This document shows positions 53,668 to 57,322 of a stretch of DNA of 64,000 nt, piece after piece. Made by a program: the position numbers and the translations under genes. Every line of letters begins with the position of its first letter. Position 1 is the stretch's first letter. A model generated the notes under the pieces. That model had not been told where the DNA came from and did not search any database. It was given only the letters and a program-made list of their open reading frames with translations. Source of the stretch: Phellopilus nigrolimitatus (taxonomy: Eukaryota; Basidiomycota; Agaricomycetes; Hymenochaetales; Hymenochaetaceae); assembly GCA_021029095.1 (NCBI GenBank), contig JAJOHG010000028.1, positions 1 to 64,000 on the forward strand, written 5' to 3'.

Positions 53668-53676
53668 GCTCAGTCC
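53668..53676 (+). repeat. Target-site duplication, left
   Basis: GCTCAGTCC immediately precedes the left terminus ACTTCAGG of the foldback element. Confidence 0.9.
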
Positions 53677-54114
53677 ACTTCAGGTACCCCTCCTGGGGTA
53701 CCCCTCTTAGGGTTAACCCCTGGGTTTGGGAATCTGCCCTAAGAGGCCCCAAAAGTGTGGTCCTTTCCCAAATCGACTTGGGAGGTCCAAAATAGTCATG
53801 GGAGACCATGGGACACCCCAATGGGTGGCCCAAATGAACATGTCCCAGCCCAACCTGAGTACAATTTTTTCTGTGCTCTATGTAGTTTCCTATACTGTTT
53901 GCCTGGTGAACTTTATATATAGGAAAGTGTATGGTGATCACCAATTGAAGTGATAACTGAGCATTTGACATGGAAGCACACAACAATACCAAAGCAACAG
54001 CAGCAAGCCATTTTAATATATAGCATACAGGACACCCTTAGAAACACAGCTACTGTATGCCCTTATAGTCTGCCATCCAGCTGTTCTTGAATTGAGAGCT
54101 TATGTGGCCAGTAG

Positions 54115-54275
54115 AATTTATTTGGGGCAACCCATGGGCAGTCTGGGTCACCCAAGACTACTTATGGGCCACCCAAATATTTTTGGGACATCCCAAATGA
54201 TTTGGGTGGCCCAAATCGATTTGGGCCATTCAAGGGAATGCTTGGGTGGCCCAATGCATTTTGGGCGACCCAAGA
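54115..54275 (+). repeat. Cluster of GGGTGGCCCA-type short palindromic words
   Basis: Words such as TTGGGTGGCCCAAA, GGGCCACCCAAA and GGGTCACCCAAG recur about every 10-20 bp in both orientations. They may be transposase or host-factor binding sites, which is inference. Mirrored at 56715-56875. Confidence 0.8.
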
Positions 54276-54289
54276 GCTTATCTTAATCT

Positions 54290-54415
54290 ATAGAAGGAAT
54301 TCAAAAGCTTCTCTTGATAATAGAAGCCCCAAAGCTTATCCTTATCAGGTGAAATTCCAAAGCCTTATCCTTATCAGGTGATGCCCCAAAGCTTATCTTA
54401 ATTAGATGAAGCAGC
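54290..54415 (+). repeat. Degenerate repeats of about 35 bp
   Basis: Four imperfect units built on CCCAAAGCTTATCCTTATCA-GGTGA. Mirrored in the right arm at about 56575-56700. Confidence 0.8.
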
Positions 54416-54479
54416 CGCTTTTGTTACTTTCTGCTTTGTACAATTCCTTACTTTGTACACTTCTGACCTCACGCACTTT

Positions 54480-54890
54480 TGTTACTTTTGTACACTTTCA
54501 CCAGTACTTTTTGTACACTTTTTGATCGCTTTTTGTACACTTTTTGTACACTTTTTGTACACTTTTTGACCGCTTTTTGTACACTTTCTAAACAACTTTT
54601 TGTACACTTTTTATACACTTAATGTACACTTTTTGACCGCTTTTTGTACACTTTCTAAACAACTTTTTGTACACTTTTTATACACTTAATGTACACTTTT
54701 TGACCGCTTTTTGTACACTTTTTGACCGCTTTTTGTACACTTTTTGACCGCTTTTTGTACACTTTTTATACACTTTTTGTACACTTTTTGTACACTTTTT
54801 TAACAACTTTTTGTACACTTTTTGTACACTTTCTGTACACTTTTTCACCAACTTCTTGTACACTTCTTGTACACTTTTTGTCTGAAAATG
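54480..54890 (+). repeat. 11-bp minisatellite (TTTTTGTACAC / TTTTTGACCGC)
   Basis: About 35 consecutive units of 11 bp alternate two main variants, TTTTTGTACAC and TTTTTGACCGC, with some TTTTTATACAC and TTAATGTACAC. Because 11 is not a multiple of 3 the frames rotate; an apparent KVYKK-repeat peptide on the other strand is a by-product. Mirrored at 56100-56512. Confidence 0.95.
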
Positions 54891-55319
54891 TCTTGGAGTC
54901 AATCTGTGGGGTTTAGTGTTCTGTTAATAGCATAGCAAGTTCTGCTTCGATTGTGATGCCCTTATATTCGAAATGTATGCACTGATAAGCTCTACACTAT
55001 GCAAAAACAAACACCCAGATTGGTGCAGTATTGGTAATGTGAGAGGCAAACAGATCCTAAAAGCCCATAGAGGTGAACTTAGATGACCTGTTTCCCTCTT
55101 GCTCTACCAATATTGCATCTATCTGGGTGTCTGTTTTGCATGCTATAGAGCATGACGGTGCACACATTTCAAATATAATATCATTGCAATCGAAGTAGAA
55201 CTCGTTATGCTATCAGCAAATTAACTGAAACCCGCAGATTGACTTGTGGTATGCCCTATTTCAGTGCAGTTTAGTGCTCTTACCTGATACTCTTTCACAT
55301 ATGTGGTAGAGCTACTGGA

Positions 55320-55670
55320 GTATCGAATGAAGTTGGCTATGTGCTCTGATAATGTTAGATCATCCTAGAATGATACAATGTGAGACTAATTGTTTGTTTA
55401 TATCTCTAGCAGTAACTACTATTTGACTTTAAAGACACATGTAGGATGAGTTTCAATAAGTCAGTCTTGTCAGATCATGAAGTCATGAAGGATTGAGATT
55501 CAATTGTAAAAGTAATTGCCAAGAAATCTAAGTTACTGTGTTTACACAAGTACTATCTTATGATTACATCCAGAACTGAATGGAAGGGTAGCTTTGAATT
55601 CTATATGAAACCAGAAACTGGAATCTCAGTGCTCCATTAACTCTATGACATTGTCAAAGCCTGTAAAGTG
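55320..55670 (+). other. Foldback central spacer
   Basis: AT-rich single-copy loop between the arms, without an open frame of note. Nothing shows a transposase remnant. Confidence 0.7.
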
Positions 55671-57313
55671 TCCAGTAACTCTACCACATATGTGAAAGAG
55701 TATCAGGTAAGAGCACTAAACTGCACTGAAATAGGGCATACCACAAGTCAATCTGCGGGTTTCAGTTAATTTGCTGATAGCATAACGAGTTCTACTTCGA
55801 TTGCAATGATATTATATTTGAAATGTGTGCACCGTCATGCTCTATAGCATGCAAAACAGACACCCAGATAGATGCAATATTGGTAGAGCAAGAGGGAAAC
55901 AGGTCATCTAAGTTCACCTCTATGGGCTTTTAGGATCTGTTTGCCTCTCACATTACCAATACTGCACCAATCTGGGTGTTTGTTTTTGCATAGTGTAGAG
56001 CTTATCAGTGCATACATTTCGAATATAAGGGCATCACAATCGAAGCAGAACTTGCTATGCTATTAACAGAACACTAAACCCCACAGATTGACTCCAAGAC
56101 ATTTTCAGACAAAAAGTGTACAAGAAGTGTACAAGAAGTTGGTGAAAAAGTGTACAGAAAGTGTACAAAAAGTGTACAAAAAGTTGTTAAAAAAGTGTAC
56201 AAAAAGTGTACAAAAAGTGTATAAAAAGTGTACAAAAAGCGGTCAAAAAGTGTACAAAAAGCGGTCAAAAAGTGTACAAAAAGCGGTCAAAAAGTGTACA
56301 TTAAGTGTATAAAAAGTGTACAAAAAGTTGTTTAGAAAGTGTACAAAAAGCGGTCAAAAAGTGTACATTAAGTGTATAAAAAGTGTACAAAAAGTTGTTT
56401 AGAAAGTGTACAAAAAGCGGTCAAAAAGTGTACAAAAAGTGTACAAAAAGTGTACAAAAAGCGATCAAAAAGTGTACAAAAAGTACTGGTGAAAGTGTAC
56501 AAAAGTAACAAAAGTGCGTGAGGTCAGAAGTGTACAAAGTAAGGAATTGTACAAAGCAGAAAGTAACAAAAGCGGCTGCTTCATCTAATTAAGATAAGCT
56601 TTGGGGCATCACCTGATAAGGATAAGGCTTTGGAATTTCACCTGATAAGGATAAGCTTTGGGGCTTCTATTATCAAGAGAAGCTTTTGAATTCCTTCTAT
56701 AGATTAAGATAAGCTCTTGGGTCGCCCAAAATGCATTGGGCCACCCAAGCATTCCCTTGAATGGCCCAAATCGATTTGGGCCACCCAAATCATTTGGGAT
56801 GTCCCAAAAATATTTGGGTGGCCCATAAGTAGTCTTGGGTGACCCAGACTGCCCATGGGTTGCCCCAAATAAATTCTACTGGCCACATAAGCTCTCAATT
56901 CAAGAACAGCTGGATGGCAGACTATAAGGGCATACAGTAGCTGTGTTTCTAAGGGTGTCCTGTATGCTATATATTAAAATGGCTTGCTGCTGTTGCTTTG
57001 GTATTGTTGTGTGCTTCCATGTCAAATGCTCAGTTATCACTTCAATTGGTGATCACCATACACTTTCCTATATATAAAGTTCACCAGGCAAACAGTATAG
57101 GAAACTACATAGAGCACAGAAAAAATTGTACTCAGGTTGGGCTGGGACATGTTCATTTGGGCCACCCATTGGGGTGTCCCATGGTCTCCCATGACTATTT
57201 TGGACCTCCCAAGTCGATTTGGGAAAGGACCACACTTTTGGGGCCTCTTAGGGCAGATTCCCAAACCCAGGGGTTAACCCTAAGAGGGGTACCCCAGGAG
57301 GGGTACCTGAAGT
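55671..57313 (-). repeat. Foldback right arm
   Basis: Reverse complement of the left arm including the mirrored minisatellite and palindromic words; ends CCCCTCCTGG... inverted to ...GGTACCTGAAGT at 57313. Confidence 0.9.
56100..56512 (-). repeat. 11-bp minisatellite, mirrored copy
   Basis: GTGTACAAAAA / GCGGTCAAAAA units, the reverse complement of the array at 54480-54890, in the same variant order. Confidence 0.95.
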
Positions 57314-57322
57314 GCTCAGTCC
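57314..57322 (+). repeat. Target-site duplication, right
   Basis: GCTCAGTCC directly follows the right terminus CCTGAAGT. Confidence 0.9.

Follow-up and report, generated by a model that had tools for sequence, protein, structure and literature searches.

A palindrome of 3,639 bp in the genome of Phellopilus nigrolimitatus is most readily understood as a non-autonomous foldback DNA transposon that is likely moved in trans by a KDZ (Kyakuja-Dileera-Zisupton) transposase and whose arms are kept identical by arm-to-arm correction, a reading in which we have reasonable, if not complete, confidence. The strongest result is that the two arms of a copy evolve together, while the copies diverge from each other. 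The element lies in the window, i.e., the whole stretch of 64,000 nucleotides that was analysed, and recurs as seven further complete copies elsewhere in the genome.

Structure, copies and target duplications

The element begins and ends with CACTTCAGG..CCTGAAGTG and consists of two arms separated by a spacer, with a single mismatch between the arms (55312 versus 55678). This bears out the giant near-perfect foldback of the initial annotation, which had put the arms at 1,643 bp, one base short of their actual length. Together the arms account for 3,288 of the 3,639 bp (about 90%), giving the element the long inverted arms of the foldback class, and each has the internal repetitiveness of that class, being made up of TTTGGG/CCCAAA-rich repeats, an array of 11-bp units and an imperfect hairpin of around 350 bp. 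The features, in window coordinates, are as follows:

53669–53675, no strand: left target duplication CTCAGTC, 7 bp, from flank comparison
53676–57314, no strand: whole foldback element, 3,639 bp, CACTTCAGG..CCTGAAGTG, with 7 more complete copies in the genome
53676–55319, plus strand: left arm, 1,644 bp, differs from the right arm at one base, 55312
54455–54876, plus strand: 11-bp tandem array (GTACACTTTTT-like units) of the left arm, 422 bp
54895–55258, plus strand: hAT-like palindromic MITE remnant of the left arm, lacking its left end but retaining the right end GGTATGCCCTA
55320–55670, no strand: single-copy spacer, 351 bp, central in the 7 other complete copies
55671–57314, minus strand: right arm, 1,644 bp, mismatch at 55678
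55732–56095, minus strand: hAT-like MITE remnant of the right arm
56114–56535, minus strand: 11-bp tandem array of the right arm, 422 bp, position obtained by mirroring that in the left arm
57315–57321, no strand: right target duplication CTCAGTC, 7 bp, from flank comparison

Eight stop-to-stop frames of at least 250 codons are present in the window, none of them inside the element, and the searches of the genome for KDZ and MULE domains gave no match within it, in agreement with the earlier statement that no transposase is encoded there. In the 56.4-Mb genome the outer 200 bp of the arm gave 19 matches: 8 inverted pairs (the window's own included), a copy truncated at a contig end (C631) and two weak matches, which together form one 98-bp miniature (C614). 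Inverted pairs of this sequence at seven other places are far beyond chance, and the search for further copies that the initial annotation had proposed has thereby returned seven additional complete ones (C9, C346, C434, C221, C3, C603 and C168). Exact duplications of 7–8 bp flank six of the eight complete copies, as befits a mobile element of the foldback class.

The base before ACTTCAGG is C and the base after CCTGAAGT is G in all eight complete copies, and thus the element extends one base further at either end than first read, the query having begun at the A; relatives of other sizes also have the terminal C, which their search pattern required. With the ends taken as C..G, the duplication at the window is the 7-bp CTCAGTC, and an exact duplication is found in 14 of the 18 elements for which both flanks were read (7 bp in 8, 8 bp in 6), with none in C221, C603, C446 and C614, the last of which agrees at 6 of 8 bases. 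With the ends taken as ACTT..AAGT, the same 18 elements yield 9 bp in two (the window and C9), 10 bp in one, 2 bp in one and nothing in 14. The 9-bp duplication claimed in the initial annotation therefore does not hold: the apparent 9 bp are the 7 bp plus chance matches, a G and a C in the flanks happening to equal the terminal bases, and the other copies show 7, 8 or none, an outcome which that annotation had itself named as counting against it. An apparent 9-bp duplication at a single site can mislead classification. Both 7- and 8-bp duplications occur within the one family, and likewise between the KDZ-bearing elements on C13 (7 bp) and C434 (8 bp). The left flank of the window element is single-copy in the assembly, and no empty allele was found there.

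Ends in common with KDZ elements

A search of the genome with the KDZ domain (PF18758) gave 73 matches, the eight best of which form a group at 196.5–201 bits. Seven of these eight (C90, C555, C312, C13, C434, C567 and C168) are located 2,779–3,257 bp inward from a CACTTCAGGCACCCC end and match it in orientation; for the remaining one, C625, there is no end in the right place among the end matches listed. Scanning for CACTTCAGGTACCCC with up to 2 mismatches gave many inverted pairs (the set with 0–1 mismatches is complete, and that with 2 mismatches comprises the matches listed). Judged by eye among the pairs listed, seven are spaced 16–33 kb apart and six of them, all but the one on C608, hold a best-group KDZ match, which none of the listed pairs below 10 kb does. 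The frame on C567 has the KDZ domain at 1.2e-58. The element on C434 (C434:41354-58211; 16,738 bp) has these ends, TIRs of about 230 bp that are 98.7% identical, and ATTTTGAT as its 8-bp duplication; among eight of its frames tested, one has a CxC1 domain (2.1e-7), which is annotated as 'associated with KDZ transposases', one has a marginal SPT5-KOW match and six have nothing. The frame with the marginal match belongs to a second block of frames that the element holds. The pair on C13 spans 22.8 kb and has the 7-bp duplication TCAATGC. Homologues of the KDZ protein number 772, the best being 74% identical, and all 120 of those listed carry PF18758. A KDZ-domain locus of another group lies on the window's own contig (C201:200192-201235), around 143 kb from the foldback. 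TET/JBP genes were considered as cargo of the KDZ elements and set aside, as the one match, at C446:168027, is below the cut-off and outside the KDZ elements discussed.

The first 15 bases of the window element agree with C608 and C614 at 15 of 15 positions and with the KDZ elements on C13 and C434 at 14 of 15; the differing base is position 10, which is T in the window's family (hereafter T-type) and C in the KDZ elements. Over bases 16–50 the likeness to the KDZ elements is weak, with 35 of 2000 shuffles (C434) and 132 of 2000 (C13) scoring as well, while against C608 and C614 none of 2000 did. Beyond the ends there is no blastn match of the window's family to the KDZ elements (1e-5, against the 16.7-kb C434 element). 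The element thus has the 7-/8-bp duplications and CA..TG termini of the KDZ superfamily, and ends in common with the KDZ-encoding elements of its genome; encoding no transposase of that superfamily, it could be at most a non-autonomous member. From the ends and duplications, it is probably moved by a KDZ transposase: the transposase of the 17–33-kb elements, whose ends agree with those of the foldback at 14 of the first 15 bases, would act on it in trans, and it would move by cut-and-paste and insert with a stagger of 7 or 8 bp.

Basidiomycete KDZ transposons are likewise described with 5'-CA..TG-3' ends and 7-/8-bp duplications (PMC12730594, PMC8290104), the duplications being 7 bp for Kyakuja and 8 bp for Zisupton (PMC12730594). 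As in those transposons, KDZ and CxC1 domains occur in the related large elements here; together with the genome size, these domains point to a basidiomycete. In contrast to them, the window element encodes no transposase, and arm sequence makes up about 90% of it. Kyakuja families as presented in PMC12730594 are without TIRs, unlike the KDZ element on C434 with its 230-bp TIRs. A KDZ foldback did not appear in the top-ranked open-licence literature, although the supplement of PMC8290104 characterises TIR motifs of KDZ elements, so that the ends may already be in print.

Alternatively, the T-type foldback family might be moved by another, undetected transposase (e.g., hAT or P), its likeness to the KDZ ends being old or convergent. 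The ends are all that the foldback and KDZ elements have in common, and the sole large pair with a T-type end, an 18.4-kb pair (C608:16388-34744) with a stretch like the 11-bp array, the MITE and a 7-bp duplication, is the one that lacks a KDZ match. Moreover, hAT and P transposases also make 7–8-bp duplications, and the hAT-like MITEs with 8-bp duplications, described below, indicate that other transposases have acted in this genome. Against this, 14 of the 15 terminal bases agree, and 7- and 8-bp duplications are mixed as they are in the KDZ-bearing elements. We regard a different transposase as improbable, though still deserving of some weight.

Nested elements, host gene pieces and possible small RNAs

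The inner hairpin of the arms is the remnant of a dispersed palindromic MITE of 377–387 bp with the ends TAGGGC..GCCCTA. Among 13 loci with both ends, an exact 8-bp duplication is present in 8, a match at 7 of 8 bases in 4 (which represent one inherited insertion) and none in 1, two of the 15 loci having no complete end pair. TAGGG..CCCTA ends with an 8-bp duplication are what we take to be a hAT-like signature, and it is on this combination that the MITE is called hAT-like. The module had also been considered as a link between the window's family and the KDZ elements, an idea dropped once it proved to be a dispersed MITE.

The copy on C168 (C168:215919-227773) carries a nested LTR element, which is young, its 375-bp LTRs having one difference, and which, going by eye from its frames, appears Ty3/gypsy-like. 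At 10.9 kb this copy was a candidate for an autonomous one, which was rejected, as it is the foldback plus the nested LTR element. Two larger relatives with the same ends, C137 (C137:15807-23761) and C603b (C603:1040440-1048257), are 7.6–7.8-kb elements with TIRs of 930–970 bp. The former holds pieces of host genes, namely ribosomal protein L4 (PF14374 at 4e-19, PF00573 at 4e-7) and a bZIP protein (PF07716 at 8e-5); the latter has a bZIP match just below the cut-off and, in the frame tested, none to L4. These two resemble the plant Pack-TYPE elements described in PMC8903248.

The initial annotation suggested that dsRNA from a transcript of the arms may seed small RNAs in trans. On this view the element would be a functional hairpin-RNA locus acting against transposons, which would be compatible with a KDZ-moved foldback. 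The inverted repeat is 1.6 kb long, the folding energy of its inner 351 nt is -188.8 kcal/mol (z = -20.9; none of 100 shuffled sequences did as well), and the genome has 73 Piwi-domain matches, several of them broken, from which RNA interference appears possible. Several on C4, C368, C27 and C390 are nearly alike, which suggests a large Argonaute set. However, the inner hairpin is accounted for by the decayed palindromic MITE, and as a functional RNA in its own right it was discarded despite its strong fold, Rfam giving nothing at gathering thresholds. The arms also have no match to the KDZ element: with no blastn match between the two, small RNAs derived from the arms would not match the transposase gene, though they could match sister copies and, at 64–74% identity, the hAT-like MITEs. 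We thus hold such a function to be unlikely.

Joint evolution of the arms

Outside the array, the arms of the same copy differ at 1 site in the window's element, 2 in C221, 1 in C603 and none in C9, C346, C434, C3 and C168, i.e., at 4 of 9,628 sites over the eight copies. The copies form three lineages, (window, C9, C346, C168), (C434, C221, C3) and (C603), between which the arms differ at 52–74 of 1,164–1,217 sites, as against 0–8 within lineages; C434 and C3 are identical outside the array, yet occupy different sites with different duplications. The spacer is central in all seven other complete copies, being split by the nested insertion in C168, and where compared (seven of the eight copies) it shows the same lineage split as the arms, with 0.059–0.088 differences per site between lineages against 0.043–0.061 for the arms. 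The divergence of spacer and arms by lineage implies that the palindrome already existed when the lineages split, and that correction of the arms has taken place since.

The larger features follow the same pattern. The array varies from 222 to 522 bp across copies and is equal in length between the arms in seven of the eight, the arrays of C168 being unequal (522 versus 389 bp). Both arms lack the nested MITE's left end in all four first-lineage copies, and both retain it in the remaining four. In C434, C3, C221 and C603 a stretch of around 45 bp from one spacer end is found on both sides, and in the other four copies on a single side, showing that the border between arm and spacer moves. The larger relatives C137 and C603b, compared over 690 bp, have 1 and 0 within-copy differences and 33 of 667 between them. 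Such homogenisation is not universal, TIR identity being 91% in C90 and 84% in C446, both with short TIRs. The notion that C168 had lost arm identity after its nested insertion was dropped, as its arms have 0 substitutions and one 133-bp array gap.

That the arm identity is an artefact of assembly or polishing is a concern, since foldback artefacts in long reads are described in PMC12870357. Nonetheless, direct repeats of differing sequence flank six of the eight foldback copies, and differing repeats at independent sites argue against an assembly fold; lineage-specific changes are present in both arms of copies; and the same assembly keeps the unequal TIRs of C90 and C446 and the unequal array of C168. 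An artefact is accordingly very unlikely. As for the MULE-type foldback with a 9-bp duplication proposed in the initial annotation, MULEs duplicate 9 bp (8–10), and despite the long TIRs and the apparent 9-bp repeat at the window and C9 the superfamily has next to nothing left in its favour and is rejected, as 9 bp occurs in only 2 of 18 elements (14 have 7 or 8 bp and 4 none), a first-look search with the MULE domain PF10551 that was positive in 3 of 14 control genomes gave 0 matches in this genome, and elements whose ends are nearly identical to those of the foldback encode a KDZ transposase.

The palindromes of the human Y chromosome, though far longer than the foldback and not mobile elements, offer one parallel for the upkeep of arm identity. 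Their arms are more than 99.9% identical by arm-to-arm gene conversion (PMC3723533). The Tm1 MULE foldback of root-knot nematodes has the same foldback architecture (PMC3169594), but foldbacks of this type differ in duplication length, and this genome has no MULE domain. The system that appears to behave most alike is Galileo of Drosophila, of the P superfamily, for which foldback-like long TIRs, internal tandem repeats, copies of just two TIRs, 7-bp duplications and 98–100% identity between the two TIRs of a copy are likewise reported (PMC3573991). It differs in its ends and, as we infer, in its transposase group (KDZ here); furthermore, Galileo group F is described with differing repeat numbers in its two TIRs (PMC3573991), in contrast to the array here, equal in seven of eight copies. 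The repair model put forward for Galileo has one TIR copied onto the other, with lengthening of the TIRs (PMC3573991), and several transposase binding sites are reported in its long TIRs (PMC3688188). The 11-bp array might serve in a similar capacity here.

The 1.5–1.7-kb arms of the foldback, identical within a copy as separate copies diverge, may be corrected by gene conversion at rest or by post-excision repair that copies one arm onto the other. More tentatively, and with a probability that we would place somewhat short of even, the element might be seen as a KDZ-mobilised, self-correcting palindrome, in which each jump or rest-time repair copies one arm onto the other, such that a foldback lineage would behave in evolution as a single hairpin, acquire nested insertions in both arms simultaneously and move the boundary between arm and spacer. 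If so, the KDZ superfamily would gain a foldback class that offers the single-copy spacer as a reference for measuring arm correction. The upkeep of arm identity is itself measurable in this family, with three lineages, the single-copy spacer as a yardstick, and the array and MITE as further markers. If the assignment is right, KDZ, a main transposon group of basidiomycetes, would be widened to include foldback and gene-carrying forms.
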